Source of the DNA: Tetradesmus obliquus
Taxonomy: Eukaryota > Chlorophyta > Chlorophyceae > Sphaeropleales > Scenedesmaceae
Length of the DNA: 64,000 bases
Assembly: GCA_030272155.1 (NCBI GenBank)
Contig: CP126197.1
Coordinates: 434,001-498,000 of the forward strand
Direction: 5' to 3'
The notes beneath the pieces were generated by a model that was not told the DNA's origin, made no database searches, and saw only the letters and a list, made by a program, of their open reading frames with translations. Positions 26,891-64,000 of this stretch are shown here, piece after piece (the stretch's first letter is position 1; each line of letters begins with the position of its first letter). Made by a program: the position numbers and the translations under genes.

Positions 26891-29230
26891 ATGTTGGACT
26901 CCACGTCACCTTTGCTGGGGGAAGAGGGGCCATCTCAACGAAGGTGGAGCTTCAGACGCCGAACAACAGCCACATCATTGGAGGATGCATGGTCAGAGCG
27001 TGGTGGGTGCTGCAAGCACTTTCCAGGGGATCTGCCTGCTGAGAATGCCAGTACTGCTGCACCCGCTGCTCCTGCTGCTGCGTACACCAAACCTTTGGCC
27101 GCGCCCGCTGCTGATACATTGTCCAGTGCATGCACTTCATTCTCACTACAGTGAACTTGCATGCATACAACCCTCTGCAGCTTAGGCTGCTGCCAGTCAG
27201 CCGGCCCGTCAGTTCCGGCTTGTTGTATGCAGCAGCAGCCGCTGCTTTGAACGCTTCACCTATGCACAGAGGCCCAGAGGGCTGCACTGTGCTGCGACAA
27301 TGCATCTCTGCTGCCCTGCACTGCTCCTTATATAGCGATGCACTGCTGGCCCCTGCTGCAGAGGCTGAGGAGGCAGCTGGCCCCGAGGACTACACCTCCA
27401 TCATCTTCAACCTGCACGCCTGGTCCTACCGCCTGTCACAGCAGGCAAGCAGCAGGCAGGCAGCAGCAGCAGCAGCTTCACAGCACACTGTCAGCTAGCG
27501 GTCGGCTGAGCGGGACGTGCGGCATGTGCTTGTTGTCCTTTGAGCGCAGTGCCACGGCCTTGCCCAAGTTTGCAGCTTGCCTCCATGCTTTCCTGCCGAG
27601 ACCTTTCACAGCAGCTATCCAGCATCCACATGTCAGAGTAATGCACTTCACAATGATAGCACGAGTGAAGCGCCTGCTGCCTCGCCTCTGAAAGGGTCAC
27701 CAGGCACTGTTATGCCTGCAGGAGTTCTCCTATGAGCGCCGCAAAGTGCACCGCACAAGGCAAGCACATGTCGCAGCCCAGCCATGATGCCATGCCGCGC
27801 TGCCTGCAGGAGTTCTCCTACTATGAGCGCCGCAGCCAGCTGCGCCAAGCGGCCCGCAGCTTCGACCCACGCCACCTCAGCATGCTCTTCAGGGCGGACC
27901 AGCCACCACCACCAGCAGCAGCAGCAGCAGCTACAACGCACACTGCAGCAACAGCAGCAGCAGCGCCAGCAGGGCCCAAGCCTCGCCGCTACGTAGGGTT
28001 CAGCAGGATCCTGCGGCGCAGCGGTTCAAGCGCTCGTAAAACCCCAAAGCCACATTCCTGGTTAGGCCTGCCAGTGCTGCCAGTGAGCCACCCAGCCATG
28101 GCTGCTTGGAGTGCGCTGATGCTGCTGCTGGATATGAGCTACACTGCGGTGCTGCTGCCGCTGCTGTTTGCGTTTGGGCGCATGCACCCTGGGGCCGGCG
28201 TGTACTGGCTGAGTGTTGGGGTGGGCTTCCTGTTCCTGGCTGACATGGTGGTGGTCATGCACAGGTGGGCTGATACTGGATCGCACTTCTTCAATGTGAC
28301 AGGTTTGGAGTGTTATGCAGCCCATGCGAGCAGTTGCAGTAGTGAACCCTGCCTTGTGTTGTAGGGTTGTTGAAAGCTCCCTGCAGCTGCATGTCCGCAT
28401 GACACTCAGCCGATTGCATGGCAGCAATGCAGTGCTTCCAGCCAGCAACCTTTTCTTGAGGAGCCCTAATGACCAGCAGCGCCCTCTGGTCTTTGAAGGA
28501 CCTGCAGAGCACGCGTCACCTCTCCTCCTCATGACTTGTAAAGCTGCTACCCTGGCATCAATTGACTGCTGATGCATTGCCGCTGCACGGATGTGGTAGT
28601 GCGCTACCTTGACAAGCACGTGTACATCGACAGCCCGCGCGCTGTGTTCCATTTCATCAAGTTTGTCACCACCATGGCATCATCTGATTGGCTATGCATT
28701 GCATCTGCAGGGGCGTGGTGGTGCGCTACCTTGACAAGCACGTGTACATCGACAGCCCCGCTGACGTGGCGCGACTGTACCTGGGCCATGGCTCCTTCTT
28801 ATCGGACCTGCCAGTGGCACTGTCAGGGCCGCTGCAGCTGCTTGCGCTGCTGCCGGCAGGGCACGCGGGCCAGGTGGAGGGCAGGTGAGCCGATCACCTG
28901 ACAGATATATACATGTTATGCTGCTGCTGTTGCCGCCTCTGTTTCTGCAGCTGCTGGCGCTGCTGCCAGCAGGGCACGCAGGCCACGTAGAGGGCAGGTG
29001 AGCCAACAACCCCCTGACAGATACAAACATGTTCGGCTGCAGCTGCTGACGCTGCTGGCAGTTGCGCACACGTGCCAGGTGGAGGGCAGGTGAGCCGGCA
29101 GCTGCGCACACTTAGATACATGTGCTGCCTCTGTTGCTGCAACAGCTGCTGGCGCTGCTGTTAATGCGCATGCCAGGTGGAGAGCAGTTGAGCAAGCAGC
29201 GTCATACATACAACATGGTGCGCCTGGTTG

Positions 29231-29276
<46 letters not shown>

Positions 29277-32200
29277 GCCAGAGCATGGATTGAAAGTATC
29301 GTTGCAAGAAGCCTGCTCATACTGCGCGCTGTCTCTTGCACCCAGCTCACTGCTGCAATGCGCCCTGCCCCACTGTGTTGCGCCTTCTTCTCCTGCCCTG
29401 TGCTACTGCCCTGTGCAGCGGCATCAGCCTGCTGGTCAACACGGCCGTGATGCTGCGCGGGCTGCGGCTGGTGAAGCTGCTGCTGCTGTCACGCGAGCTG
29501 TTCTTCGGCAAGATGGGCTTCAGGTGGGGGCAGTAGCAGCAGCGGCAGCTGCAGGCGGCAGCAGCAGCAGCAGAAGAAGCGGCTCTGTGGCAGCGAGCAG
29601 GCTGCTGTCTGCCGGTGTGTACTGCTGGCAGCCAACATGACATGAGCGGCATTGGTGATGTTTACTGCTGGTACTGCTGCATTGCAGGCAGCTGGAACTG
29701 TCACTTTGCCGCTGATACAGCCCCAGGATCGTGTACATGCTATGTAGTAGTACTTGGGGTCGTTGTCGAATGTATTAATGTACTGCCTTACTGCTGCGCC
29801 TGGGTACTGCAGGCACATGGGTCCCTCACTGTACCGCTGGTATGGACTGAGCCTGGTGTATGTGCTGCTGATTGCAGATGGCTACTCTACCCCCATAATG
29901 CTGCACCGCTGTACCACTGTACTGCTTGCACTGCTAGACTGCAGGCACATGGGTCCCTCACTGTACCGCTGGTACGGGCTGAGCCTGGGTACGTGCTGGC
30001 CGTCACTGAATGTTGTACCACTGTACTTCTGTACCGTTGTACTGCTGTACCGCAGGCACATGGGCCCCTCGCTGTACCGCTGGTACGCCCTGAGCCTGGT
30101 GTACGTGCTAGGTGTGCTGTTGCACTGGCTGGGCTGCTTCATGCTGGGGGTGGCACGCATGGGCGAGGGCCTGCAGGGCAGCTGGCTGGCCGATGTCAAG
30201 GTGAGGGTTTAAGGCTTGCCACGCTGGAGCTTAGGGTTTAGGAAGTGATATATTGGGGCCAAGAAGGTGGGCGGTGCTGTTGCGGTGGCTGGGCTGCTTC
30301 ATGCTGGGCGTGGCACGCATGGGAGAGGGCCTGCAGGGCAGCTGGCTGACTGATGTCAAGGTAAGGGTTTATGGTTCAGGAAGCGGGGTGATGAACCTAG
30401 GGCCTACATGTTGCTTGATGTGCTGCTGCACTGGCTGGGCTGCTTCATGCTTGGAGTGGCACGCATGGGAGAGGGCCTGCACTGGCTGGCCGACGTCAAG
30501 GTGAGGGCATGGGATCTAGGGGCTGGTAAGCTGAGCACTGCTGCGCAGTCGGCCACCTCAAGAAGCGCCAGGCACTTTCTGCAAGCCGGAACCCGGCTGT
30601 GGCTTTTCTGCCAGTGGCTCTCTGCTATAGCAGCTGCGCTGTACACCTGCTATTGTTGCAGGGCCATGACCTCACAGCAGCATCAGCCGGCCAGCAGTAC
30701 ATGGCTACTTTCTACTGGATGCTCATCAGCACTCTGACACACAGGCTGCTGCTGCTGCTGCTGCTGCTGCCGCCACTGCTGCTGCTGCTGCTGCCGCGGC
30801 AGGGCCGTGACCTGACAGCAGCATCAGCCAGCCAGCAGTACATTGCTGCTGTCTGTTGATTGCCGATCAGCACACCAACATACCTGCTGCTGGGACTGCT
30901 GCTGCTGCTGCTGCTGCTGCTAAATTTCAGGACCACGACCTGACAGCAGCACCCGCCAGCCAACAGTACATGGCAGCCTTCTACTGGATGCTCATCAGCA
31001 CTCTGACACAGGATGCTGCTTGCTGTTGCTGCTGCTGCTGCTGCTGCCGCAGGGCCACGACCTGACAGCAGCACCCGCCAGCCAGCAGAACATGGCTGCC
31101 TTCTACTGGATGCTTTTCAGCACGCTAACACAGGCTGCTGCTGCCGCCGCCGCCGCCGCTGCTGCTGCTGCTGCTGCAGCTTCGCAGGGCCACGACTTGA
31201 CAACAGCCCGAGCCAGCCAGCAGTATATTGCAGCCTTCTACTGGATGCTCAACAGCACACTGACACACAGGCGGCTGCTGCTGCTGCTGCTTTGCAGGGC
31301 CACGACCTGACCACTGCCCCCGCCCGTCAGCAGTACATGGCTGCTTTCCACTGGATGTGGATCAGCACGCTGACACACATGCTGCTACTGCTGCTGCTGC
31401 TGCTGCTGATGCTGCTGCCGCAGGGCCATGACCTCACAACTGCCCCCGCCAGCCAGCAGTACATGGCTGCCTTCTATTGGATGCTCATCAGCACACTGAC
31501 CATTGGGTATGGCGACATCAGCGCCAGCACACCCCTGGAGCAGGCGGCTGTGGTGGCTGCTGTGATCACGGGCGTGCTGTTCATTGGCTATGCCATCAAG
31601 GGCATAACTGACATCATGGCTGAGGCAGCAGTGCAGGTGGGTGCAGGTAGCGGTGGGTGCGTGTTGGTGTGCTGGTGACTGCTGTCATCACTGGTATGCT
31701 GTTCATCGGCTATGCCATCAAGGGTATAACTGACATCATGGCTGAGGCAGCAGTACTGGTTGGGCATGTGGCAGTACTTGTGGCAGCATAACAGGTGGAT
31801 GCATCTGGCTGTAGATGATGGAGGGGTGGCTGCTGCCAGAACAGGGGTGCTGTTCGTCGGCTATGCCATCAAGGGTATAACAGACATCATGGCTGAGGCA
31901 CCAGTACAGGTTGGGGAGCGGTTCTAGGTTGCAGGGGTTGAGTGGTTGAAACCTTGGGGTTTTGGTGGGTGCGCAGGCTGCTGCATGTGACAGCAAAGGC
32001 GGCAGCACAAGTCAACGTGAGGTGTATCAGCTAAATGCACGCTGCGCTGCCATGATTCGGCTATGTCATCAAGGGCATAACTGATATCATGGCGGAGGCG
32101 GCAGTGCAGGTGCAGTATGGTCATGCATGTAGTTGAAACACACACTGCCTGGCAGCTACAGTTCATATGTGTGCTGTGTTTGCTCTGCTGCCGTGGCCAT

Positions 32201-34070
32201 TCGCTTTTGAATCGTGCATGCATACACTGCATCACTTGCTGCCAACTTTGTAGCCGCAAACAAGAGCAGCATGCATTACTCTAGTACATCTACACGGACT
32301 TTCAGGTATGCAACGCATTTCGTATGGTTGCACCGCGCCAGGACAAGCACAAGCAGAGCATCACGCTGCTGTGCATTATCCTATGACGCATTCATGCATT
32401 CGTTTTGCCGCGCTGCACGCAGGACGAGTACAGCCAGCGCATCACGCTGCTGCGTCAGCGTGCGGGTGAGCTCAAGGTGTGGGCGGCGTGGCAGGACCTG
32501 CCCACGGCACTGGAGGAGCCCATGTTCAGGTGGGGTGGCGCTGCTGCTGCTGCTGCTGCTGGAGTCGGGTGGTTGGTGTGCATGTGTTGTTGTTTGTCTT
32601 TTGTGAGCATGCGTGAATGACATCCAACAGGTTCACTTGTGAATGCGGCAACCCACAGCTGCCCATTGCTTGGCAACAATTGCTGTTGCTGCTCAACTGC
32701 TTAGCTTGATCTGTTCCGTCGACCTTGCTGCTGCTGCTGCTGCCAGGTACTTCATGGGCCCGTGGCTGACGCAGCAGGTGGTCACACGCCACTGGGGCAA
32801 CGTGCTGCAGGACCTGCCGGCTCAGCTGAGGGGCCAGGTGCTGGCCACTCTGCTGGTGGAGCGGCACAAGGTGGGAGGCGGCAGCAGCAGCAGGAGGAGG
32901 ATTGAGAGGATATTAGTGTTGATCTGTGAGCCGCTGCCCGTGGCACCATAGGCAGTGCCCCAGCTTCAGCTGCCCTCTGCTGCTTGCCTAACTTGGATGG
33001 TGGCAGTGTAAACAATTAGGCACTTGTGCTTGCCTTGTTGCGCAGTATCGAGTCATGATGGCATCCCGCTGCTGCTGCTGCTGCTGCTGCTGCGCTGCAG
33101 GAGCTGTCCCCGCTGGGCAGCCGTCTGCTGGCTGGCGTGCCGCTCACCTCACGTTGGCACGTGCTGGCGCTGCTGCAGCCTGTTGCTCTGGCCCCTGGGC
33201 AGCAGCTGTGCTGGGAGGGACAGGCGGCAACGCACATCTGGCTGATGCAGGTGTGTCTGGGACACATGGGGTGGGACTGGTGTGATTGTGGGACACATGC
33301 ATGAGACACATGCATGTAGCCGAGGCAATGTGGAAGATTTTGCGGGTGTGGGACACATCTGGCCGCCAGTGGTGCTGGTGGAACACACAGAGCTCTCTGA
33401 GGCAGGGCAGGGGACCCATACCTAGGGGGTGATGATGCTGGCTGGTTGCGCTGCAGTAATGTGCAGGCATGCCGCTATCAGCCGAGTGTGCAGCCCCATG
33501 GCCCGAATGTGCTAGCTACTGGATGCAGTTGCCATGATCAAGCTGTGCTGGTGCATGGCGTTTTTGTTACATCTGTGTTGGCTTTTGAGCAAAAACATGC
33601 CGGGCATTTGGTTTGTTGCTGTTTTATGTCTGCAGGAGGGCTCAGTGGTGTCGCTGGATGGTGTGGTGCCACGCCTGGACTCCTTCAATGCCTGATGAAG
33701 TCATTGGTCTCATACTGCAGTGTGTCGTTCTGTTGAGGAGAGCTCAGGTGTCGGATGGCGTGGTTCCTCACCCAAACTCCTTCATGCCTGATGTAGTCTA
33801 CGTAAATGCTGAACTAACCTGTTTGGCCTTTTGCAGGAGGGCTCCGTGGTATCGCTGGATGGCGTGGTGCCCCGGCTAGACTCCTTCAATGACAGCCCAG
33901 GCATGCTGCTGGCCTTTGATGCACTGGCATGGCTGCAGCAGCAGCGCACACGCCTGCAGCAGCGCCAGCAACAGCAGCAGCAGGCTTGGCTGGACACACA
34001 TGCGGGCAATGGCACCAGCAGCAGCAGGCAAGGTGACAGTAGGGAAGCTCAACCCAGCATGCAGCAGGGT

Positions 34071-34114
<44 letters not shown>

Positions 34115-34526
34115 TGCTGCTGGGGACAGGCAGACCAGTCATCCCTCAACGCGCTACGTCAGCACCAGCAGCAGCACCAGCAGCAGCACCAGCAGAGCCG
34201 CCACCCCCATCCCCAACCCCACCAGCCCCACTGGCCCTTCGCTGCCAAGCCCCAGCCCCAGCCCCAGCCCCAGCTGTGACGCGTCACTGTCTGCAGAGCC
34301 GTCACAGCAGTATGCGGCAGCAGCAGCAGCAGCACCCAGCTCCACTGCAGCAGCAGCAGCAGCAGCAGCAGCAGCGCCACGGTACACAGTGAGCTACCAG
34401 GCTGTGGGCAGCAGCTTCTTCTGGGCGCTGCCGCTGCAGCAGCTGGGCCTGGCCTTCAGTGGCAGCGATGGGCCGCGGCTGCTGGACAACTTTGAGGCAG
34501 AGCTGGCAGCAGCAGGACGTGCGTGA
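26891..34526 (+). CDS. Voltage-gated K+ channel with C-linker and degenerate cyclic-nucleotide-binding domain
   Basis: Exons that join in phase: 26891-27150 and 27201-27444 (tentative), then 27810-28264, 28711-28884, 29419-29523, 30056-30200, 31424-31636, 32423-32529, 32747-32870, 33101-33250 and 33837-34526, about 888 residues. S1-S2 lie in 27810-28264 (HPAMAAWSALMLLLDMSY; VYWLSVGVGFLFLADMVVV). S3 follows (VVVRYLDKHVYIDS), then S4 with spaced charges (VMLRGLRLVKLLLLSREL), S5 (VLGVLLHWLGCFMLGVA), the pore STLTIGYGDI and S6 (VVAAVITGVLFIGYAIKG). A C-linker and CNBD-like fold follow. Topology and filter place it with EAG/CNG/plant Shaker-type channels. The CNBD lacks a recognisable phosphate-binding cassette and holds a roughly 120-residue Ala/Gln/Ser/Pro insert. 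Intron 2 appears to be GC-AG. The introns are packed with exon echoes. Exons 1-2 are the least certain. Confidence 0.87.
27721..27752 (+). repeat. Exon echo upstream of the S1-S2 exon
   Basis: A CTGCAG acceptor followed by a near copy of the first 30 bases of the exon starting at 27810 (GAGTTCTCCTATGAGCGCCG) lies about 90 bases before the real exon. Confidence 0.75.
28585..29190 (+). repeat. Exon echoes around the S3 exon: one upstream, three downstream
   Basis: At 28590-28640 there is a near-identical copy of the start of exon 28711-28884, with a spoiled acceptor. After the exon, copies of its 3' end (CTGCTGGCGCTGCTGCCAGC-like, ending GAGGGCAGGTGAGCC or close to it) lie near 28948-29002, 29040-29095 and 29145-29187. 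All lie in introns. Confidence 0.8.
29813..30508 (+). repeat. Exon echoes around the S5 exon: two upstream, two downstream
   Basis: Upstream copies at 29813-29873 and 29945-29996 match the 5' part of exon 30056-30200, each preceded by CAG. Downstream copies at about 30276-30370 and 30417-30508 match its 3' part, each followed by a GTAAGG or GTGAGG donor. Identity is high by eye and the copies differ by scattered substitutions. Confidence 0.85.
30661..31380 (+). repeat. Six tandem exon echoes of the pore exon 5' part, with CTG tracts
   Basis: Copies begin at 30661, 30802, 30931, 31052, 31188 and 31298; the real exon begins at 31424. Each unit is a CTG-rich tract, an acceptor, then about 80 bases encoding variants of TTAPASQQYMAAFYWMLIST. 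Only the last, real copy continues into the TIGYGD selectivity filter. Unit spacing is about 110-140 bases. Confidence 0.88.
31681..32112 (+). repeat. Three exon echoes of the S6 exon 3' part with donors
   Basis: Copies at 31681-31757, about 31840-31914 and about 32054-32110 repeat the end of exon 31424-31636 (FIGYAIKGITDIMAEAAV region). The second and third end in CAGGTTGGG and CAGGTGCAG, both donor-like; the first ends TACTGGTTGG. Confidence 0.85.
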
Positions 34527-34736
34527 GAAGCCACTTGTTCCTCGCTTTTTACAGATGTATGGTGCTGTGTGGGTTCGCTGGCAGCAGCAGCAGTACTGCT
34601 GCTGCTAGTAGCGGGCGCATCAGCAGCTGCGGCGGCATTGGAAGGCTTTGCACATCTTACAGCAGCTAGCGCTGGCTTTGAAGGCAGCGATGGGCCGCGG
34701 CTGCTGGACAACTTTGAGGCAGAGCTGGCAGCATTC
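32339..34736 (+). repeat. Exon echoes near the C-linker, CNBD and last exon
   Basis: An upstream copy of exon 32423 lies at 32339-32372 (AGGACAAGCACAAGCAGAGC). Two upstream copies of exon 33837 lie at 33637-33695 and about 33735-33790. A downstream copy of part of the last exon lies at 34681-34736, beyond the stop codon. Unrelated sequence and real exons separate these copies. Confidence 0.75.
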
Positions 34737-34767
34737 CACAGCCCCTAGATCCGCACAGAATAAACAG

Positions 34768-34830
<63 letters not shown>

Positions 34831-35154: not shown

Positions 35155-35187
<33 letters not shown>

Positions 35188-36406: not shown

Positions 36407-39400
36407 CTACTGGCCTAACTGCGTGCGTTCGTCTGCATCTAGCGCGCCAGCCGCCTGGCCCTTGGCACACGGCTGCCGTGCCAGGTACTCAAAGGCTGCC
36501 TCAGCCTGCACCAGCCCGTGCCCAAACTGCACATCCTTGCCCTTGGGCCCCAGGTCCTTGGCCGTCTGCTCAAATGCAGCGCGCACGATGGTGGCGGGGC
36601 AGTTAGGGTACACTGCCCACACGCGCGCGATGGCTCCAGTGACGTGTGGCACTGCCATGCTGGTGCCTGACAGGTACTTGTACGCGCCGACCTGCAGGAC
36701 AACGCAGAGCGGTGAAGAGCAGCTGCGGGTTGGTATGTTGTATCTTGAGAGTGTTTCAGTGACGTGTGGCACTGCCATGCTGGTGCCTGACAGGTACTTG
36801 TACGCGCCGACCTGCAGGACAACGCAGAGCGGTGAAGAGCAGCTGCGGGTTGGTATGTTGTATCTTGAGAGTGTTTCAGTGACGTGTGGCACTGCCATGC
36901 TGGTGCCTGACAGGTACTTGTAGGCGCCAACCTGCAGGAAATAACGCGTGGCAGGCAATGTCGGCAAGTTGATATGAGCGATTGAATTTTTGTGCCTGGT
37001 TGACGTGTAGCACTGCCATGCTGGTGCCTGATATACATTTGTACGCGCCGACCTGCGTGACGGCGCAGCATGATACGGACGAGGCAGCAGTGTAGCTTGC
37101 AGTAGATGTGTGTACTGGTCGGGTGCGTTCTGCAGCTGAAGCTGTGCATAGCCATGCATCATGCTGCAACTCCCTCCACGACACACCGTAACTCCACTGT
37201 GTCCACTGCTGGATAACAGGGGTCAATGCAACAGGAGCCAACGTAACAGAACAGTTGAACCCGTTGAACCCTCCAGATCAAAACGGCACCCCCCAGCACC
37301 CACCTTGGACTCCACCGTGCCGACAAACTGCCGCCGCGCCTTCTTTGCAGCAGCCACCGCAGCCTTCACTTCCTCGTACTGCCTCAAACTCAGCCCAGCA
37401 GCAGGCAGCCGCGCTGTGTTCTTTATGCGGCCCCAACAGCTGCACTTGGCGCTGCTGCAGTCGAATGTGGCAAACACGGGCGAATCCTGGATCCTGCTTG
37501 TCACGTCAGCGCGCGTCACGGCGTCTAACGTCGCAAAAGGCACGCCATAGAAGCCGCTTTGTAAGGGGGGGTTTGCCACCAGCATTGCTTTTGCGCCTTG
37601 CCGCATGCAGAACTCCATTGTGTCACACAAGAACTTGGTGGGCTGGGGGAGTACCCCGCGTTGCACCCCGCGCCCCTGCTGCTGCTGCGGTGGGACACGC
37701 GATGCACTGCTGTTGCCGCCGCCAAGCAGCCGCGACGCCAGCGCACCCACAGTCGCCCTACCACGTGTTGCGGGTGGGTTTGACGGGTTTGGGGTCTGCT
37801 GCTTGTTGATCTGAGGGTCGTACTGCACCATGCAGATGGAATTCTTGGCTTCCGGGCAAGGTGCAGAGCCGGTTCCGCAGTCCGCGATCTTGCCGGTGAC
37901 CTTGCCGGTGCCGCTGCTGCCGAGCTGGCTCGACCGCGGGCCCACGGACTGCACCCGGATCCGCGGCTGCACCGAAGTAAAGCCGGAAGCCATACTGCCC
38001 GGCAGCACGTCGTTTCGTGAGGCCGTCGATAACGTGTGCAGCCCGGGAGCTGCCAGATCCACCGAGGGGTTTTTCTGACTGAACGGAGCCAAATTGTTCG
38101 CGCAGTCGACCGCCGAAACGGCAATGACTTCCGGGTATGAGCCGGGGTAGTTGCCGGGGTTGACGTCGGTGGTGAGCTCGCCGTCAGCCAGCATGGTGGG
38201 CGAGGAGCCGTTGTTGCCGCTGGAGGCCACGAACAAGATGTCGCCGCGCTTGATGGCCTCCCTGCATCACAAAATACATGTGCAGAACTTGATGCAGGGT
38301 ACGCCAGTCAAGGTGTATACATCTGCATTGTACGGCCGTTGTTGCCGCTGGAGGCCACAAACAGGATGTCGCCGCGATTAATGGCCTCCCTGCAATTATA
38401 CAATAAATATAATCACATAAATATAGGCTCAATTCAGGGCACACGGACTAGCTGTACCGCGGTCTTGTTCAGTCAGCGATCGCAGGTCGGCTGCTACATG
38501 TTGTGTGCCAGCCGCCAGCCGTCAGCCGCCGCATCAGGCGCGTGTGTATGCCTGCTGCCGAGCTGCCTCCTACACTGCAACTCGCATGTGTTGTGTCGCA
38601 GCTGCTCGCATATACATACTCGGCTAACACCCCTCAGCATGATCACCGCCTGCTGCTGCTGCTGCTGCCGCTGCCGCCGCTGCTGCTGCTGCTGCTGCTG
38701 GCCTCCACCTGAAGTACATGCGCTCGATGGTCAGCGGCCCGGGCGCCCCCAGGCTCATGGACACCACCATGCGGTACTGCTTCTCAGGGTGCGCCACCTG
38801 CAGCAGCAGCAGCAGTAGTATGTCAATGCAGGCTCATGAACATTTCCATTGCCACTGCTGCTCAAGCCGCGCCACCAGCCCTGACACGGGGTGACTGGGT
38901 GACACCACACCCAACAGTCACCTCATCCACCTACCTGCAGCGCTGCAAGCCTCCCGCACTGCGCGAAGGCCAGGATCACTGAGCTGCCGTACACCAGGCC
39001 CTGGCCCTGGTTGACGTCACCGGAGTCGTTGTACACCCAACAGCTGTCACCAAGTGTCAATGAGTGCAACTGTGCTTTGCTGTTACTACAAGTCACTATT
39101 TGTCACTGCATTGACCACCATCAGCCCACCTGCAAGGCCGCCAGCCTGCCTTCGCACTGCGTGAAGGCCAGGATCACAGTGGACCCATACACCAGGCCCT
39201 GGCCCTGGTTGACGTCCCCGGAGTCGTTGAACACGCGCACAACGTACAGCTCAGCAGGGCCGGGGATGACGCCCACCACGCCCTCGTTGTTCCTTTGAGC
39301 TGCAATGGTGCCTGCGGTGTGGTGACAAAAGGCAGGCAGAGGGCATAGTGGTACAAACTGTGAAGCTGGCTGCGCTGCAATGATGCGTGCAGGAAGGCAG

Positions 39401-41113
39401 TTACAGGCAGGGGGCCATTACAACGGTCAGGATGTAAGATAGACAATGCAGCATGGCGCGTACAGCTCAGCGGGCACTGGGATGACTCCCACCATGCCCT
39501 CGCCGTTGCGCTGCGCAGCGATGGTGCCTGTGGCGCGACAATACCAGCAAGCGGATGAGCCTGCTGGTTGCTGCTGAATCTACTGCTGCTGCTGCTGCTG
39601 TCGCGCGGCAGCCTGCTGCCACCAAACTGTGGCACAATACCAGGTTTGCAAGCTGAAGTGCCTGCTGGTCACTGCTGCTGCTGCGGCTGCAGCACTGCAT
39701 GCCGCTCACTAAGCAGCTGCCGGCCCGTGCACGCACCTGCCACGTGTGCGCCATGGCCCGCCAGGTCCTGCTGCTGCTGCTGCTGCTACTGCTGCTGTGC
39801 AGCACTGCGCCACAAAGCTCACTCTGACGCACCCCTGCGCTGGGTGCAGTGCTGATCTCAATGCGCAAGATTCCTCCACACACCTGCCACGTGTGTGCCG
39901 TGCCCCACCAGGTCCTGATCCCACTTGAAGGGGCAGCCGGCTGGCGCAAAACTGTCCTCAAACTTGCAGCCATCCAGCGTGTCACCGCGCAGGTCGGGAT
40001 GGCCTGCATCCATGCCTGCAGCACACAACATCAAAAGGTAAGCAGCAGCAGCTTGCTGTAAGGAAGCTGGAAGTCGTTGCCTCGGGCGATGCATCAACCC
40101 CAAGACTGGCTGAATGCTGGAAGGTCAAGCCTAGAAAAGGAGCGCTTGCTTGGCCACAGAGTGATGCTTGCGCATGCATTTGTGTGGGTTGCTGCTGCTG
40201 CTGCTGCTGCTGTGTGCATGGTGTTTGCTAAAGCCACAGGCTCAGCCAGGGGTGTCTTGACGCTTTTCAGAGGCTGCTCAAATGCACAGCTACAGGTGGC
40301 TCTTCCGGCATGCCGCTGCTGGAACCACGACACACTCAGAGCAGCTGCATGTCCGGGGTCAGCTGCTGGAGCTGGAGCTTGAGTTGCTGCTGCTGCTGCT
40401 GCTGTCAGCTCACCGGAGTCGATGATGCAGATGAGCATGCCCTTGTCATCTGTGCGGTTGGTCAGCTTGCTGCTGGTGGCCTGAATCTGTGCAATGCCGT
40501 ACGGCTGCAGGCAGGAGGGCAACGCAAAGCAGACACTTGTCAGCTGGTGCGACTGACAGGTTTCAGATGCTTGGTGTACGCTGCTACTGCTGCTGCTGCT
40601 CTGCTGAGCAGGGCATGCCACGGGGGACACAAAACAGGTGACACCACCCAAAGCAGCCAAAGCACTGCTCACCTGATACTCCGGCACTGGACTGTCTGAC
40701 AGCGGTATGCTCCTATCCTTGCATTCTGCTTGCTGCTGCTGCTGCTGCTGCTGTGCTGCTGCCTTGGCGCCACCTGGCCCCTGCTGCTGCTCAGCAGTAG
40801 GCAGGTGCATGTAGCGCGGCAGGTCCTGCTCTGCATACTGCACGCCTGGCCAGCTGCGGGCCCTTTCTAGCAGCTTTTCTACTTTAGCTGACTGTAGCTG
40901 AGTTTTGCCCTGACTCCTGAGCACCGTTAAGCCGGGTGTTTGTGCTACCGGCAGTAGTTTGAGTCTGCTGGCCTGCTGGACCACCGCAGCTGCGGCATCT
41001 GGATTGTGTTTAACAATGATACGTTGGCAGTGAGTTTGGGGGTATACGATCGCTAAAAGCAGCATTGTCACCGCGAAGCAGTGTTGGCCTTTGCTTCGAC
41101 TGCAAGTCCTCAT
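36407..41113 (-). CDS. Secreted subtilisin-like serine protease (subtilase, S8)
   Basis: Seven exons in phase: 41113-40673, 40504-40414, 40015-39884, 39311-39130, 38797-38709, 38261-37304 and 36691-36407, giving about 725 residues. Residues 1-30 are a signal peptide. The following segment, including RSWPGVQYAEQDL, resembles an inhibitor I9 propeptide. The catalytic set is complete and in order: Asp 176 in ICIIDSGMDAGHPDL, His 216 in GHGTHVAG, oxyanion Asn 328 in ASSGNNG, and Ser 642 in GTSMAVPHVTGAIA. A large insert between Asn and Ser carries Cys-rich, PA-like sequence (AMLVANPPLQSGFYGVPFAT). It should act extracellularly or in the secretory pathway after propeptide removal. Partial copies of four of its exons lie in the introns. 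All splice phases agree, so the model is strong. Confidence 0.93.
36640..37055 (-). repeat. Tandem exon echoes of the catalytic-Ser exon, including a perfect 120-bp repeat
   Basis: The 5' part of exon 36691-36407 (GAYKYLSGTSMAVPHVT) with its CTGCAG acceptor recurs upstream at about 36760-36811, 36880-36931 and 37003-37055. Two consecutive 120-base units, from 36640 and from 36760, read as identical by eye. The third and fourth copies have diverged. Confidence 0.92.
38330..39770 (-). repeat. Exon echoes around subtilase exons 3, 4 and 6
   Basis: An upstream copy of the exon 6 start lies at about 38330-38396 (its acceptor intact). A downstream copy of the exon 4 end with a GTAGGT donor lies at about 38939-39040, and an upstream copy of the exon 4 start at about 39465-39535. 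A downstream copy of the exon 3 end (GHGAHVAG then GTGCGT) lies at about 39720-39770. Real exons lie between these copies. Confidence 0.85.
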
Positions 41114-42499: not shown

Positions 42500-43439
42500 C
42501 TACCCCCTTCCGCCCATGAGCTGCTGCAGGCCGCCCGACTGCATCAGCTGCTGCAGCATGGCCTGTGCATCAGGCCCGCTCATGCCCTGCAGCATACCAG
42601 CCAGGTCAGCGCCACCCGGCATCATGCCGCCCTCCTCCTCCTCCTCCTCCTCGATCTCAATCTCCTCCTCGGCGCCCTTGCGGGAGCGCAGCCGCCTGCA
42701 GGACGAGCAGCATCAGCAGCAGCAAGGGCGTTTTAAAGGAGAGCGCTGCATGTCACCATCAGCATGATGTCCAGCCTGGCGCACACTGCTGACTGTGTAG
42801 GCCAACGGGAGCTGCTGCAGCAAGCTGTCCCAGCTGCACAAACAGCTCAACAAACATTGCATGCACAGAGCTCTGTACGCCTGGACCACATTGCTCATTG
42901 TGTTGTTGACGCACACAATGTATGTATCTTTGTGATGTCATCACGCACACGCACTCAGCCGCGCACCTGATCCAGTCCTTAGCGTAGTTCACGAAGGGCA
43001 GCAGCAGCAGCCAGCTCAGCTTCCAGTCGCGCGCAGAGAACACGTTCATGTCCACGTGCATGATCTCGCCGCCTGCAGCAGCAAAGAAACACAAAACAAG
43101 TGCGAGTATGATGGAAAGGTCCAGCAGCAGAACACGTTCATGTCCTCGTGCATGATCTTGCCACCTGCAGCAGCACATCAAACAAACAAACGAACACACA
43201 GCATGCGATTACATGGCTCGAGGTCCAGGAGCAAGACGCGTTCATGTCCATGCATGTGACCATAACACAGTTTGTAAAGCACCTGACACCCAGTCCACCT
43301 CCACGCCCGCGGGGTAGCCGCCAGGCAGGTCAAAGTCGTAGGCCAGTGCAGTGGCCCAGCCGCCGATGGTGGATGACTCATCCTTGGTGCGCTCCTGGTA
43401 CCAGTCAAAGTTCATGGCCAGGCCCTGAAGGTTGAGTCG

Positions 43440-43474
<35 letters not shown>

Positions 43475-43788
43475 GCAGCAGCAGCAGCAGCGGCAGTGTA
43501 AGGCAGGGTTGAAAAAACCCCATTCAGCAAGGCGTGCAATGTTCACCATGATGCAGCAGTTGGGGAGTCACAAGGGTTGAAAAGCCTGCAGAGGCAAAGC
43601 GGCAGGCTCTGCACACAACGTGCGCTAACTGGCTAGCAGCATGCCAGACATGCCAGGTGCATGGAAACAGCATTGAACCAGCAATGAATTTCAGCTACCA
43701 AGCCTGCTCACCGGGATGTAGTCGTACAGCACGAAGGCGCGTGCCCCCCAGCCCTCATCGCGCCCCCCCATGGGCGTCTCGCCGCGCA

Positions 43789-43827
<39 letters not shown>

Positions 43828-49067: not shown

Positions 49068-49098
<31 letters not shown>

Positions 49099-52000
49099 GC
49101 AGGTGCAGGCACAGCAGTGCTGGTGAGGGGAGCAGAGGGAGGGGACTGGCTGGGAGATGCCAGATGCACTTGCACGTAAGCTACGCACGATACAGTGAGC
49201 GTGCACGGCTAAACTTATGCTGTGTCATCATGTTACGCACGTAATTGTTCTGTTCGCGCACCTGCCGTGAGCTACCACTACTCACAATCGTGGCTGTCAC
49301 AACGAAAGCCCAGGGTGAACTTTTTGCTAGTGTCTCTGGATTTTCAACACAAAACACACCCCTCGCCCCGCACCTCCGTTGGCGTGTGTGAGCACCACCA
49401 GCGTCTGCTTCCACACCTTCTGGCCCAGCGTGGCGGTGATGTTGCTGAGCAGGCTCATCTCACCAAAGCCTGGCCGAGCAGCGTCCAGCCTGGAAACAGG
49501 CAGGATCAACAGCAATGGCAGGAAAAATGCAAGCAAGCAGTGCGCAGCGTGGCAGCGACTTTGCTCAGGAGCAACATCTCACCGAAACCGGGGCGCGGCG
49601 TCAAGCCTGCGGCCACAAGGTGCGGCAGCAAGCAGTAAGCGCCAACAATCACGGGCTCAATCGTTTTCCACACGCGCGCCAGGTGGTTTGTGTTGCACAT
49701 GAAGTCCTGCTCCCTGCTGCAACCCTCCAGCTGTTGCTGTTGCTGCTGCTGCTGCTGCTCCTGCTGCTGCTGCTGCTGCAAAAGCAAGACAAGACAGCTG
49801 CAGCAGGCGCACCTGTCCGCGTAGAGCACAAAGTGCGGCTTGCGCGCACTGCCAGCGGGTGGCCTCCAAGGTGCAGCCAAGACATGGAAACTCAAGCCAC
49901 AGCGAAGCAAAACACAGCCATTGCGCCGCACCTGTCGACATACAGCACGAAGTGCGGCTTGCGCGACTGGTAGGCGCGCTTGATGGCCTTGAGCGTGCTG
50001 CGGTTGGCGGACTGCGCGTCGCTGCTGGCCAGCAGCCCGGGCGTGTCAATGGCAGTCAGCGACACACCTGCAGCAGCAGCAGCAGTGGCGGTCGAGAGAA
50101 TGTGTTGGAAGCCGCATGGAGTCACTCCAGGTGGTCGACGCCAGGAGCAGCACGGCCAAACACATCCCGTTGCAAAAGCATGCTCTGCTTGCTTCTGCTG
50201 ATGCCGCTGCTTGACTGCCAGATCCATCCTCAAAGTATGGTGTTTATGAAGGAACAATGCTTAACAGGCTCTGCGCACCTGCCACGTTGCCCTTGACAAC
50301 GCGCACGCGTCGTGTGCTGTCCCTGAAGGCGCTGGTGCTCAGCACGGGGCGGCCCATCAGCGAGTTGATCAGCTCGGACTTGCCTGCAGAAAACAAGCAC
50401 AGAAGATGACAAGGTGATAACACAGCACATAACAGGGTGACGACACAGCACATGACACAGAAAAGCATCACAGCAGTGCTCAGCACGGCCCGGCCCATCA
50501 GCGAGTTGATCAGCTCAGACTTGCCTGCAGTTAGCAAAGTGACATACAAGTTGACAGGGTCTGAACACAGCATACGTAACACACAGTGTAAAGGAGCATT
50601 GCACACTGTGTGCCTAGAGGTCGCAATTCAGAGCTGAGATGCCACATTTGCAGCACACGGCATAACAGCGTTCGGAAACGGCTGCACACCAATGGTCAAA
50701 ACGCGCCCTGTCCAGCTGACAAAGCTGACAAAGTAGCAGCAGCAGCTGCAATATCTTCAAAACGCACCTGTGCCAGTCATGCCCACCACCATGATGTGCA
50801 GGTTGCTGCCCACCAGTGCATGGCAGCATTCATTCCTTGCATCAAAACAGTTGCAGCAAGCCCTGCGACGCTGATGCACGCACCTGTGCCGGTCATGCCC
50901 ACCACCATGATGCGCAGGTTGATGCCCAGAGAGGAGTCGGGCGCCTCGCGCTCGTTGCGCTCCTACAGCAGAGAAGATGGTGCGGACGAGAGTGGACGGG
51001 CAGGGCCGTCAAACAACAGAGGACCCAAGGCATCAAGCAGTGATATTGTAGCGGTGGGAGCTCGTCCCTGGAACAGCTACGGTGCCACAAGCAACATGGC
51101 TGACACCCAGCTACTGGTTCCTGCCCTGCTATCACATGCCACGGCCTCCTGCAGTGCCAGCTTGCGCGCATCACCCTCCAATACACAACACAGCTGCCGC
51201 AAACATTCAAGGTTAGGACACACCATGATCCCTGTACCCAAGACGGCCTCCTGCAGCGCCAGCTTGTTCATGTACCCCTCCACGACAAGGAATTGCGCAA
51301 AACTAAACCTTCCGCCGTACTGAACCCTAAACACCAGCTCTACACCCACCATGGCCTCTTGCAGCGCCAGCTTGTTCACATCACCCCTCGCCCGTGCCAG
51401 TGGCGCCTGCACCTTCTCCAGACGCTCCAGCACACCCAGGTACTGCCCCAGCTGCTCGTTGCTGCCTGAAAGCCCTAGCCGCATCGCTGCACGCAGCAGC
51501 CCCACCCGCAGCGCCTGCACCTGCTGCCGCAGCTTCTGCTGCGCCTTAGGCTCCTCTGGATCCACCACACCACTCACTGCTGCTGCTGCTGCTGCTGCGG
51601 AAGATGCGGCAACCGCACCGGGGCGGCCTGCAACGACCGGAGCAGCGCTGCGCACGACAGCGGGGCCGCCGCCGGCAGCTGCAGCCGGCCGCCCGGGCAG
51701 CACCGGGCGGAAGGATGAAGCGCCGCCGGCTGGCGTGCTGCTGCTGCTGGCTGCGGCGCCGCTGCCGCCTGCTGCTGCTGCTGCTGGGCGGGGGCCGAGC
51801 GCTGGCAGGCCCCCTGCAGGCTGCTTCGCAGGCAGTGCACCAAGGCCACCTGCTGGCTTTGGTGGCTGCTGCTGCCGCTGCTGGGTACCAGCATCGCCTG
51901 CTGCTGCTGCTGCTGGTGTTGCTGCCGCCTTGGGCTTTGGTGGCAGCAGTCCTAAGCCGCCAGCTGGCTTCGCTGGCGCCGCTGCTGCTGCTGCCGGCTG

Positions 52001-52316
52001 CTCTGCTGGCGCTGCTGCTGCAGGGCCTGCGGCATCTGCTGCTGCTGCTGCTGGCTTAGCTGGTAGCTTTGGACCCAGGCCCAGGCCTCCAAGGCCTAGC
52101 CCCCTGGGCGCTGCTGCTGCTGCTGCTGGCTGCTGTTGCTGCTGCTCACCGTTTGCTGCTGCTGGCGCTGCTGGTGCTGGCTGCTCTGCTGCTGCTGGCT
52201 TTGCAGGTGGCTTCAGGCCCATACCTCCCACGCCCCTGGGGGCACCCAGGCCTGCACCTAAACCCAGACCAGGGCCGAGCCCTGCAGGCTTAGCAGCTGG
52301 CTTCTGAACCTCAGGC

Positions 52317-52348
<32 letters not shown>

Positions 52349-53113
52349 CTGCTCTGGTGCAGCAGGCTCAGCAGGCTCAGCAGGTGCTGCTGCTGCTGCT
52401 GCTGGCTCGGGCTCCGCAGGTGCTGCTGCTGGCTCTGCTGCTGCTGCTGCTGCTGCGCTTGTCTCCTGTGCAATGGCTGCGACTGCACTGCCGGCAGCAG
52501 ACGCAACTGGGGAAGGCGACCCTGCGGCGCAGAAGTCGTAATCTGGAGCACTGATGGAATTTGCTGAGGAGCGGCAGAGTGTGCTAGGAAGGGCCTCAAC
52601 ACTGCAAACTGCTGAAGTAGTACTAGCTCACAAACAATGCACGTAGACAGCAGCGAACGCTACCAGACACACAGGACTGCTGTAACGTCAGCAGCAACAG
52701 CAGCGCTGCGTCCTGTGAATAGATGCACGGCCATTGCTGCATCAGCCCTGCCAGCCTGGCCTGAAAGCACTACTGGGATTCCAACTCCAGGCGGTGCTGC
52801 CCTACCTGCATCATCACTTGCTGGGTCTGTGTCTGCTTGCGGAATGCCTGCAGCAGCCTCCTCGTGCACGTATGCGTCCAGCTCCTGCAGCAGCGAGCCA
52901 AGATTGGTGCAAACGCAATACAGACGAGCAATGCGGCCATTTACGAAGCGTTGGAGCGTACCTCCTCGCCAGAAGGCATGTCCATGTCCTCGACTGACCC
53001 CTCCTCGTCCAAGATCACCTCCTCGCTGCAGCAGATCGGAGCACGCTATAGATTAGGTATAACTCGATGCAAACATTTGATTAGAGTTTTTCCTCAACGG
53101 ACCTATCGCTCAT
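42500..53113 (-). CDS. Toc159-family chloroplast outer-envelope preprotein receptor GTPase
   Basis: Twenty in-phase exons: 53025-52962, 52884-52806, 52563-51350, 50962-50884, 50383-50279, 50067-49932, 49489-49374, 49058-48925, 48206-48165, 47826-47683, 47437-47280, 46642-46486, 45992-45842, 45269-45097, 44728-44654, 44347-44189, 43789-43712, 43424-43283, 43072-42967 and 42695-42500. A first micro-exon 53113-53103 (MSDS join) is tentative because of its GTCCGT donor. The product is about 1170 residues. The N-terminal A domain is acidic, then Ala/Pro-rich with Gly-Leu repeats. The G domain has GMTGTGKSELINSLMGR (G1), TAIDTPGLL (G3), HFVLYVDRLD and TLVVLTHANG. The M domain keeps RNILQNILRQAAGEM, LGPSFDPEDNTDHRYQYVV, MPTLDYYGFEHEDAITG and beta-barrel strands. 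It recognises transit peptides at the TOC complex. The end is an acidic run plus a Met/Gln/Gly-rich tail. Exon echoes fill the introns. Confidence 0.92.
43105..44120 (-). repeat. Toc159 exon echoes: two upstream of exon 43072, one downstream of exon 44189
   Basis: Copies of the exon start encoding GEIMHVDMNVF lie at about 43105-43170 (CTGCAG acceptor) and, shorter, about 43215-43250. A copy of the end of exon 44347-44189 with a GTGAGC donor lies at about 44057-44120. Confidence 0.8.
44977..46340 (-). repeat. Toc159 exon echoes around the exons at 45097-45269 and 45842-45992
   Basis: A downstream 3'-end copy lies at 44977-45045. An upstream 5' copy of about 100 bases, nearly identical, lies at 45418-45515. 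A downstream 3'-end copy of exon 45842 lies at about 45715-45782. Upstream 5' copies of exon 45992 lie near 46050-46110 and 46165-46235, with a degraded one near 46290-46340. Confidence 0.85.
46740..48890 (-). repeat. Toc159 exon echoes between 46.7 and 48.9 kb
   Basis: Upstream copies of the exon 46642 start lie at about 46740-46780 and 46850-46895. Downstream copies of the exon 47280 end lie at about 46985-47085 and 47130-47230. An upstream copy of the exon 47826 start lies at about 47915-47972. Four downstream copies of the exon 48925 end (LRTPFHLVDLHPD, then GTGAGTG) lie between 48470 and 48890 at about 113-base spacing. Confidence 0.88.
49535..51290 (-). repeat. Toc159 exon echoes in the G-domain part
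   Basis: An upstream copy of the exon 49489 start lies at about 49535-49610. A downstream copy of the exon 49932 end (KPHFVLYADR, GTGCGCC donor) lies at 49808-49850. An upstream copy of exon 50383, carrying the P-loop Lys-Ser, lies at about 50478-50528. A downstream copy of the exon 50884 end lies at about 50767-50815. Two downstream copies of the exon 51350 end (KLALQEAV) lie at about 51140-51180 and 51245-51285. Confidence 0.82.
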
Positions 53114-58522: not shown

Positions 58523-58536
58523 CTACTCCTGCAGCA

Positions 58537-58567
<31 letters not shown>

Positions 58568-59266: not shown

Positions 59267-59298
<32 letters not shown>

Positions 59299-60954: not shown

Positions 60955-61867
60955 ATGTATCTAGTGACCATATGTGCGTGCGCAGCAGCTGCAAGCGCGT
61001 GGGAGCGCAGTGCAAGCAAATCGCTGGAATTTAGCTGGAGGCTTGCAGGACAGTCAAACATGCAGCTGAATACACCTGTGTGAGCAGCACGTATGTCCCC
61101 TGCTGCCTGTTGAGCTGAAACGACACATTTGAACCCCGGATTCAAAACCACTGCGACAAAACTGCTGCAGGGCTCACCTGGCTGTCGCTGCGATGCATCT
61201 ACTGGCTGCTGCTGCGCCTGCTGTCCAGGGTGCGACAGCAGCGCTGCACCTTGTGGAGGCTGCTGTGGACCATGAACATCATAAGAGCACTGTCTATAGA
61301 CATTTTGTAAAGCCGCTGTGCCCCTATGCTGCTGAGTGACGCACTTTGCTGCCTGAGCTGCCATGCTGCTGCTGTGCTGCTCCCAGCTTCGAGCAGGTGT
61401 TGGCAGCAGCGACCAGGCAGCAAGGAAACCCAGGCACAGCAGTTTAAATCACAGGTGCGAGACTTGATACCGCTACTTCATCATTTCGGGTTGATCAGCC
61501 TGGCTGCAGGCGGGAGTCTGCACAAGAAACTGCGGCACCAGCAGTTGTACTCAACTCGAACTCTGTGAGCACCTACGAGATGTCAACAGTTCAAACATGA
61601 TAACAGCAACTCTTCTGCATCGTTGAATCGTAGGCAAATGGACCACAGACCAGGTGTAACACAGGAACGTTTGTCACTCCTGCGATCTTGACTGGTTGCT
61701 GCTTCAACATGCTGTCATTGGCATGTGCTGTTTCTGAGAAGGCGGCAAGCTCCACGAATCGAACACCACTGGCCTCACTCACGTTCATCTTCACAGCAAA
61801 CCTCGATCAGGCTGCCTTGTAGTAAAGCGAGAAGCCCACGTTGTTTGTTTCGGAGCATTTGATAAAC
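60955..61867. promoter_or_regulatory. Divergent intergenic region between mTERF and TatC
   Basis: The starts of the mTERF (minus) and TatC (plus) genes face away from each other across 0.9 kb, so both promoters should lie here. An open frame at 61364-61174 (-) ends at a plausible donor but does not join mTERF in phase. I see no clear TATA or other box. Confidence 0.5.
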
Positions 61868-64000
61868 ATGTTGGCTGCGAGGACGGTGTCGCGGCCCATG
61901 CAGCAGCTGAGGCCAGCAGCAGCAGTAGCACATACCACCAGCAGCAGGACCCTACTGCCAGCATGCAAACCAGCGGGACGCCGGAGACATGCAGCTTGCC
62001 GTGCAGCTGGTGATGAGCAGCAGCCAGGTGCGCAGTCAGCATTCTGCATGCATGGCCTGCAAGAGGTGCTGTCCATGACACCTGTGTGTGGCTTCAGAGT
62101 TGCTTGGCGTCGCAATGCAGTTGTGCAGTAGCCACCGACGCATGGTTACTGAGTTAGTGCATGTGTCTCTGCAAAACTTTGCTGAAGCTATGCTGCAGAT
62201 GTATGGCTGGGGTCGGCAACTGCCGCGCAGAGCTCATCATGCAAGCCATGTGGCACTCACACTGCACCTGCACTCACACAGAATTTTTGCAGGACTGCAT
62301 CTCAGCGCAGTGACCGTATGAAACCGACCACATGAAACCACATGATGTGATGGTCCGCAGGCACGCCTCTGCAGCCGCAGCAGCAGCAGCAGGTGCCGCC
62401 GCTGCTGAGCAGGGACGATGATGGCAACTTTGAGGTGGACCGCAGCGCCATTGAGAACTTCCTGCGGCCGCCTGCAGAGGAGCTGCCAGAGGACATCGAG
62501 GTGCGGATTGTGATGGTATCTTTATATCCTGTTTTGTTATAGCACACTGTTTGACCACTATACTCTGGGCGCCTGAGGCTGCATTGTGCTTGACTGGCTG
62601 CGCAGCAGCGTTATGTGCCTCAGCATCAGCAAAGGTAAAGCCAGGGCTGCAGCTCGTCAGATGTTTGCAGCAACTTTGAGGTGGACCGCAGCGCGATTGA
62701 AAACTTCCTGCGGCCACTTGCAGAGGAGCTGCCAGAGGACATCGAGGTGCGGCATGTTATGTTTATGTCCTTGTGCTGTTGTGTTGCGTTATAACACGCT
62801 GGTTGATCGCCATACTTCTGGGGCCAGAGGCTGCACTGTGCTTAGGAATAGGCTGCGCAGCAGCGTGGTGACCATCAGCAAGCTGCCGCGCCCGGACATG
62901 CCCATCTGGAGGAGCTGCGTGTTTTTTGCTGGATGTGCGCCTCTTACGCTGGCGACTTTCAGCAGATGCTTGTCTTGTTATATGTAATCCATTGCAGGTG
63001 CCGATGTGGGACCACTTGGAGGAGCTGTGCAATGTGCGTTTGTTGCTAGCCTGTTCACAGGATCCGACGCTCCCATCTGCTGTGCCACTCTTGCTGTGCC
63101 TGCAGATGCCCATCTGGGACCACCTTGAGGAGCTGCGTGAGCGCGTGCTGGTGGCGCTGCTGGCAGCAGGCATCGCCATCGGCGGCTGCTTCTGCTTCAG
63201 CAAGGAGCTGGTGCTGTTCCTGGAGGCGCCCGTGGCTGATGCAGGCGTGCGCTTCCTGCAGCTGTCTCCTGGAGAGTTTTTCTTCACCACCTTCAAGGTG
63301 AGCGTGATCTCGGTTTGCAGGGCTTATAGTTTAGGTGTAGGTTTGGCAGCGGCGGCATCAGAAGCGGCAGCAGCGGCAGCAGAGGCAGTTGCAGCAGCAG
63401 TTGTTTGGTGTGCTGCTTCTGCTTCAGCAAGGAGCTGGTGCTGTTCCTGGAGGCGCCTGTGGCAGACGCGGGCGTGCGCTTCCTGCAGCTGTCGCCCGGG
63501 GAGTTCTTCTTCTCGACCTTCAAGGTGAGCGTGATCTGGGTCTGCAGGGCTTATAGTATAGGTGTAAGATAGGCAGCAGCGGCATCAGAAGTGGCAGCAG
63601 CGGCAGCAGAGGCAGTTGCAGCAGCAGTTGTTTGGTGTGCTGCTTCTGCTTCAGCAAGGAGCTGGTGCTGTTGCTGGAGGCGCCTGTTGCAGACGCGGGC
63701 GTGCGCTTCCGCAGCTGTCTCCTGAGGAGTTCTTTTTCACAACGTTCAAGGTGAGCAGCAGCAGCAGCGGCAGGATGCTTCGTGGCAACACCGGCAGCCG
63801 CGTAGAGTGGCACAGCGGCAGTCTTGCTGCAGTTCTAGCAGCTGTCAGTGCAGCGGCACTGCTGATGTTAGCTGTTGTTAGCACGGATGGCTGCTTGATG
63901 TCGTTGCTGCTACATCAATGCAGCATGTGTGGCTATGTGTGCCTCCGCTCACACCTCCTGTTATGCACGTCGGCCCTGCAGGATGCCGGCTACAGCGGGC
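61868..64000 (+). CDS. TATC: Chloroplast Sec-independent (Tat) translocase subunit TatC, 5' part
   Basis: Exons in phase: 61868-62027, 62361-62500, 63106-63297 and 63982 onward, leaving the window. The first exon is a classic transit peptide, Ala/Arg/Ser-rich and nearly free of acidic residues ([20 protein letters not shown]). The second is an acidic linker ([20 protein letters not shown]). The third holds the TatC hallmark [20 protein letters not shown], first membrane helix and [15 protein letters not shown], the conserved region between helices 1 and 2. The last visible codons read DAGYSG, where helix 2 begins in the family. TatC forms the twin-arginine receptor in thylakoids and exports folded lumen proteins. 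An alternative start at 61841 adds nine residues. Introns 2 and 3 contain exon echoes. Confidence 0.93.
62670..63755 (+). repeat. TatC exon echoes: one of exon 2, two before and two after exon 3
   Basis: A copy of the end of exon 2 with a GTGCGG donor lies at about 62670-62755. Upstream copies of the exon 3 start lie near 62895-62925 and 62998-63035 (CAGGTGCCGATGTGGGACCA). Downstream copies of the exon 3 end with GTGAGC donors lie at about 63408-63528 and 63640-63755. The two downstream copies also share intron sequence with each other, so they arose as a unit. Confidence 0.9.

Follow-up and report, generated by a model that had tools for sequence, protein, structure and literature searches.

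Partial exon copies in the introns of Tetradesmus obliquus genes as probable traces of tandem duplication across splice junctions

Why should introns carry pieces of the exons beside them, and why should the side of the exon decide which end of it is found there? The question is raised by a stretch of 64,000 nucleotides of Tetradesmus obliquus (GCA_030272155.1, CP126197.1:434,001-498,000, forward strand; "the window" denotes this whole stretch), in which a sequence-only reading had counted more than 40 partial exon copies inside introns, chiefly in genes for a K+ channel, a subtilase, a Toc159-type protein and a TatC-like protein, with copies upstream of an exon holding its start and copies downstream holding its end. 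Using exons anchored by protein homology, we found this orientation to be nearly without exception, and the copies very probably reflect repeated head-to-tail tandem duplications, mostly of 90-165 bases, that spanned exon-intron junctions in some of the genes.

The main sample comprised 165 exons of 23 genes (three window genes and 20 kinesin loci), all fixed by protein homology, because an ab initio gene finder, trained on kinesin exons (first-round parameters) and used for locating genes and supplying references, often called copies as exons. Window-gene exons were obtained by spliced alignment of the same-species proteins P0141 (K+ channel), P0021 (subtilase) and P0001 (Toc159); P0001, a protein recorded for Tetradesmus obliquus, is 99% identical to the Toc159 query, the relatives P0002 and P0022 yielded exons nearly identical to those from P0001 and P0021, and P0023, P0143 and P0144 aligned only partially, with spurious small pieces. 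Kinesin exons, covering the motor part, came from spliced alignment to motor references predicted from other loci; the 20 loci stem from one family search and were picked roughly by match strength, not by repeats, the repeated matches of one of them (L028) being already visible beforehand, and the copy count excluded kinesin exons that were shorter than 40 bases or lay far from the centre of the domain. Exons were searched at a threshold of 34 bits against the adjacent introns, the gene's other introns and the introns of one other gene per query gene, with 600-base flanks replacing introns at the model ends. Exon definition by Pfam scans of whole frames was rejected as too fragmented.

Self-comparison of the window gave 80 rows, 13 of them inverted; once CAG/CTG-rich pairs and pairs of less than 30 bases were excluded, all 60 remaining repeat pairs were direct and lay within 5 kb. 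Introns and coding regions of the window abound in CAG/CTG trinucleotide runs, which blur both repeat searches and splice models. In the anchored sample, 60 partial exon copies reached the threshold, every one of them direct and in an adjacent intron or end flank; at the same threshold no inverted copy was found, nor any copy in a gene's non-adjacent introns or in the introns of the one other gene searched per query gene. Many similar-sized units in many introns would also be expected of a mobile or introner-like element spreading through introns, but each copy matches its own neighbouring exon only, with no match in either of the control sets of introns, and we give such an element next to no probability. 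Likewise, no sequence common to different genes was found among the exon-like parts, a shared spacer element not having been searched for separately.

The exon 5' end was present in 29 of 32 upstream copies and the exon 3' end in all 28 downstream copies, so that the rule was upheld in 57 of 60 cases. Two of the three exceptions belong to a 55-base "exon" of L028 that is probably itself a copy picked by the aligner, and the third, in Toc159, is an internal match that is weak and Ala-rich; both exon ends were covered in a single match, from a probable mis-called exon. These three rows were removed before the splice-site, spacing and divergence analyses, which therefore rest on 57 copies. In a 24th gene, L009 (RBBP4-type, re-anchored on a PDB sequence), all five matches, from one of four exons scanned, fitted the rule; re-anchoring of L033 gave fragments and was not used. 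The count of more than 40 copies is borne out by 46 rule-conforming copies in the window (16 in the K+ channel, 7 in the subtilase and 23 in the Toc159 gene), besides unanchored ones in TatC and in the 3' part of the K+ channel. What was described as a strict orientation rule holds as a pattern but is not a law in itself: it is the trace that tandem duplication must leave when the protein stays intact, because a unit spanning the junction then allows only the exon start upstream and the exon end downstream.

The K+ channel gene (26891..31636, + strand; P0141 alignment, PF07885 match) consists of exons 26891-27002, 27362-27444, 27810-28264, 28711-28884, 29419-29523, 30056-30200 and 31424-31636. 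The 5' part of exon 28711-28884 recurs upstream at 28593..28636 (spacing 122, 98% identity, acceptor changed to AC), and its 3' part downstream at 28945..28997 (GT, spacing 113, 91%) and 29036..29089 (GT, spacing 205, 83%). Exon 30056-30200 is flanked by an outer and an inner upstream copy at 29813..29866 (AG, spacing 243, 89%) and 29945..29997 (AG, spacing 111, 91%) and by downstream copies at 30274..30360 (GT, spacing 160, 93%) and 30412..30500 (GT, spacing 306, 86%). The longest array, of six upstream copies all with AG, precedes exon 31424-31636 at 30662..31374 (30662-30738, 30803-30875, 30933-31007, 31053-31129, 31188-31264 and 31298-31374), and three downstream copies with GT follow that exon at 31673..31754 (spacing 122, in the end flank of the model), 31825..31909 (spacing 273) and 32059..32109 (spacing 473). 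Farther into the 3' part of the gene, where exons are not homology-anchored, there are a repeat trio at 33631..33891 (33631-33690, 33736-33798, 33832-33891) and a repeat pair at 34437..34733 (34437-34511, 34660-34733). In P0142 and P0143, two apparently transcript-derived relatives of the K+ channel, the sequence seems to continue into unspliced intron.

The subtilase gene (36410..40810, - strand; P0021 and P0022 alignment) has exons 40673-40810, 40414-40504, 39884-40015, 39130-39311, 38709-38797, 37304-38261 and 36410-36691, the last of which contains SGTSMA, which we take to be the motif of the catalytic Ser. Upstream of this exon stand three copies, at 36757..36811 (spacing 120, 100%), 36877..36931 (spacing 240, 96%) and 37001..37052 (spacing 361, 88%). 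Exon 37304-38261 has an upstream copy at 38335..38389 (spacing 128, 93%), exon 39130-39311 a downstream copy at 38935..39036 (spacing 198) and an upstream copy at 39459..39527 (spacing 216), and exon 39884-40015 a downstream copy at 39737..39770 (spacing 147).

The Toc159/Toc90-type gene (42503..53113, - strand) has 22 exons anchored by P0001 and P0002 alignment and matches the Toc90 chain 7vcf_F (E 1.2e-224). Its upstream copies lie at 43124..43162 (exon 42967-43072, spacing 92), 45412..45510 (exon 45097-45269, spacing 241; 7 differences in 99 bases, all at third positions), 46057..46106 and 46172..46223 (exon 45842-45992, spacings 114 and 231, the second with AC replacing AG), 46737..46889 (two copies of exon 46486-46642, 46737-46774 and 46853-46889), 47912..47969 (exon 47683-47826, spacing 143, 95%), 49542..49606 (exon 49374-49489, spacing 117, 73%) and 50476..50524 (exon 50279-50383, spacing 141). 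Downstream copies lie at 44058..44112 (exon 44189-44347, spacing 131), 44973..45045 (exon 45097-45269, spacing 123, AT replacing GT), 45715..45784 (exon 45842-45992, spacing 127), 46985..47220 (two copies of exon 47280-47437, 47132-47220 and 46985-47082), 48477..48855 (a four-copy array of exon 48925-49058, 48812-48855, 48701-48744, 48591-48634 and 48477-48519), 49813..49851 (exon 49932-50067, spacing 118), 50768..50812 (exon 50884-50962, spacing 116), 51140..51280 (two copies of exon 51350-51627, 51245-51280 and 51140-51176, with TT and GC replacing GT) and 51999..52096 (exon 52150-52521, 72%, GC replacing GT, low-complexity coding).

How might such copies arise? At an acceptor, the duplicated unit would comprise the end of the intron and the start of the exon; the inner copy would stay joined to the exon and in use, and the outer one, an exon fragment with an AG of its own, would become part of the intron. 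Duplication at a donor would conversely leave exon end, GT and intron start downstream; further rounds would build arrays, in which older copies would decay. The DNA event itself could be a staggered break repaired by fill-in, or replication jumping backward. Consistently with the proposal that tandem duplication had acted across splice junctions, the copies are always direct and beside their source, form arrays of up to six, show similarity over the full unit in younger arrays and lack a consistent far splice site, and we infer this origin for each of them.

Unit size was narrowly distributed, with 52 of 57 successive spacings at 90-165 bases, none at 40-89 and five above 165; short units were not invisible to the search, since minisatellites of 35- and 38-base units were found in the window. 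At 17 acceptor junctions the exon and its nearest copy were spaced by a median of 122, at 17 donor junctions by 123 (p 0.42), and this equality suggests that unit size is a property of the mutation process, not of splicing. Of the 34 copy-bearing junctions, 19 carry one copy and 15 carry two to six. Intron-side similarity was significant (p<=0.02) in 24 of the 57 copies and covered most of the unit in younger arrays.

The acceptor AG was kept in 26 of 29 upstream copies and the donor GT in 21 of 28 downstream copies, with GC in three more. Kept copy acceptors scored like real ones (median 6.22 vs 6.06, p 0.49), and kept copy donors (GT or GC) scored below real ones (5.63 vs 6.28, p 0.009); the decoy splice sites predicted earlier are thus present, as far as the DNA sequence can tell, with acceptors as strong as those in use. 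Retained sites and acceptors of this strength, together with copy-exon differences that favour third codon positions, would also fit functional alternative exons, produced by tandem exon duplication and spliced as cassettes or mutually exclusively. Against such exons, the copies stop inside the exon, and no consistent splice site was found at that far end, exact ones being rare (GT in two L028 upstream copies, and AG at the end or <=1 base off in two L028 downstream copies). Spacings had no bias to multiples of three (remainders 0, 1 and 2 in 8, 3 and 6 upstream and 4, 6 and 7 downstream cases), most indels in the copies are frameshifts (12 of 15, or 21 of 23 under a looser alignment), and copy-encoded inserts are absent from the protein models P0001, P0021 and P0141 and the relatives P0002 and P0022, which makes a role as alternative exons very improbable.

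Differences between copy and exon numbered 77/1098, 46/1087 and 208/1086 at codon positions 1, 2 and 3. Since such coding-type divergence resembles that between alleles, we also considered an assembly artefact in which pieces of an alternative haplotype, or mis-corrected reads, were placed beside the exon. We regard this as scarcely credible: arrays reach six copies, each different, spacing is uniform in unrelated genes, and the contigs are of chromosome scale. Moreover, P0017, an apparently transcript-derived protein 89% identical, contains an in-frame stretch upstream of the equivalent of Toc159 exon 15 in which 10 of 17 residues are identical to that exon (E 2e-5, single comparison); read as a copy in a retained intron, this one case suggests that copies of this kind exist outside this assembly as well.

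Several observations weigh against repeated tandem duplication followed by simple decay. When only the nearest copy per junction was used, the third-position ratio was 3.34 (2.55-4.47). Neutral simulations in which the copy was free and the exon kept its protein gave means of 1.67-1.91 with upper limits of 2.10-2.40 (15 replicates per setting), and the unanchored set gave 3.40 (2.15-5.32). Intron similarity was not significant (p<=0.02) in 33 of 57 copies, though their exon part averages 89% identity, which is partly explained because introns are indel-rich and the copies were chosen by exon similarity. Random duplication should also leave intron-only pairs, yet in the three window genes not one of 43 direct pairs is clear of an exon, and after masking only five same-intron direct pairs without a nearby known copy (plus three short inverted ones) were left over the 23 genes. 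Of these five, three or more lie beside or over exon edges that the models missed or dropped. Finally, the 340 ab initio exons outside the anchored genes had 37 direct matches and none inverted; with the ten from one array (L031) dropped, 11 of 27 matches broke the orientation rule (seven opposite, four internal), while 12 fitted it and four spanned the whole predicted exon. Exon calls of this kind outside anchored genes were judged unreliable.

The scarcity of intron-only pairs raises the possibility that duplication is targeted at exon-intron junctions, perhaps through a lesion accompanying co-transcriptional splicing, through exon chromatin or through RNA-using repair. The 43 exon-touching pairs, the narrow unit size and the clustering by gene, which exceeded that of every one of 5000 binomial simulations in overdispersion, would suit such targeting. 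Against it, intron-only events are under-counted, because exon parts stay recognisable longer than introns, and an array of about 105-base units at L031:8479-9650 has little coding pattern, though it overlaps a predicted exon; on balance, targeting appears fairly unlikely. That array comprises some eleven units, which measure roughly 90-117 bases, have a mutual similarity of 71-77% and differ by mismatches nearly without codon pattern (ratio 1.21).

As to what shapes the copies after duplication, changes private to single copies in arrays numbered 28, 19 and 44 at codon positions 1, 2 and 3, and 8, 4 and 5 in the largest array. This last spread and the frameshifting indels speak against coding constraint on the copies or leave it weak, and the ratio of 3.34 speaks for something beyond plain decay: an excess of changes along the exon branch, admixture of diverged alleles, copies being rewritten from elsewhere or selection acting indirectly may each account for it. 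CpG was depleted in the whole sampled sequence (observed/expected 0.54; introns 0.49, exons 0.71) and CpG sites differ more between copies, both as would be expected of CpG methylation; the third-position excess persists despite them. A bolder scheme, which we think has a rather small chance of being correct, is that duplications of about 120 bases are aimed at junctions and that the exon-like part is kept tied to the exon's protein, either by rewriting from the exon or its RNA or by purging of damaged copies through recombination into the exon; if so, introns would be a shifting store of spare exon ends.

The copies were unevenly spread among genes. The 34 junctions fall in six of the 23 genes, with 17 genes lacking any; 32 of them are among 272 junctions at introns between anchored exons and two, at exon 7 of the K+ channel and exon 7 of L028, are in end flanks. 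Three of 20 kinesin genes had copies, which is the less biased rate, because the three window genes entered through the finding itself. The idea of a genome-wide pattern is thus borne out only in part, given the many copy-free genes and the strong clustering. Growth of introns through duplication, also proposed, fits the data, with median introns of 295-489 bases in the six copy genes vs 165-396 in the 17 without. In self-comparison of the 20 kinesin loci, six accounted for all 65 direct pairs within 2 kb, and two inverted pairs lay in two other loci. In L028 (C2:7427500-7437499), a Pfam kinesin search matches profile positions of about 260-289 three extra times upstream of the exon covering 263-326, near C2:7430665-7430853; this exon was outside the count owing to the distance filter. 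Among five random loci, in which exons were not anchored, L031 and L033 had many direct pairs of similar spacing, L032 had one array of about 93-base units and one inverted pair, and L029 and L030 had no direct pairs within 2 kb. A predicted gene of L030 contains two widely separated blocks that are nearly identical (KYNIRPKQLLKRMKAVDPN... repeated) and may resemble a mobile element.

How does this compare with known systems? Introners are copies of one element that rapidly add intronic sequence to many genes; here too intronic sequence is added to many genes, but each copy corresponds to part of the exon beside it. In minisatellite arrays, unlike here, position does not depend on gene structure. 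A tandem duplication crossing an intron-exon boundary in potato is a single-gene precedent: the duplication likewise carries an acceptor and exon start, but it is one event in one gene and made a new spliced intron with inserted exon sequence, whereas here there are dozens, at acceptors and donors, in existing introns and with the protein unchanged. In the Rogers AGGT exon-duplication model and the Hellsten ATP2A1 case, as described in PMC4974935, tandem duplication also supplies splice sites, but an exonic unit makes a new intron, whereas here the unit spans an existing junction and lengthens an old one. A published survey of exon duplications already has a category of partial-exon intron matches, found in more genes than full-exon duplications; its available portion describes no orientation rule, unit size, junction arrays or alga. 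As to the lesion, small tandem duplications arise in mouse cells by fill-in at staggered breaks through Pol alpha-primase/CST, with overhangs of, e.g., 43 and 50 bases (PMC8355091). These are direct duplications at breaks with overhangs, as proposed here, but the part of that study at hand describes no splice-junction link, and a role of this route in the alga would be our extrapolation. No report of junction-bound, fixed-size, gene-clustered copies was found in the open-access literature searched.

These data offer a concrete route by which introns may lengthen from inside and gain strong spare splice sites, with many stages within one genome. Beyond a single case, they allow tests of the rate of junction-spanning duplications, of how the spliceosome passes over an acceptor some 120 bases upstream that is just as strong, and of the reasons for the contrast between copy-rich genes and the majority of sampled kinesin genes, which have none; the proposed duplications do not by themselves account for the narrow unit size or the third-position excess. 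Annotation pipelines should expect false exons, since the gene finder called many copies exons here.

Other repeats of the window complete the picture. In the gene presumed from its motif to encode TatC (+ strand), a direct repeat pair at 62424..62880 (62424-62625 and 62670-62880) encodes the same 23-residue peptide twice, the true exon not being anchored; exon 63106-63297, not homology-anchored either, has an upstream copy of its 5' part at 62998..63033 and two downstream copies of its 3' part at 63412..63756 (spacing 227 and 454). For two genes said to show the pattern more weakly, a pair at 163-382 has a spacing of 120, its exon being predicted ab initio only, and the pair at 54063-54241 (spacing 102) and the repeat at 56683-56841 were not tied to exons. 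The genes at about 2.5-26 kb, presumptively labelled SAP-AAA, PDI/ERV and NEK by the sequence-only reading, gave no sign of intronic copies in self-comparison, which shows there only 5508-5802, with TPLRGA-like repeats at 120- and 180-base spacing in predicted coding sequence of the so-called SAP-AAA gene, and a minisatellite at 9025-9168. The latter (35-base units) and that at 56683-56841 (38-base units) have 97% matches and belong to a size class different from that of the exon copies.

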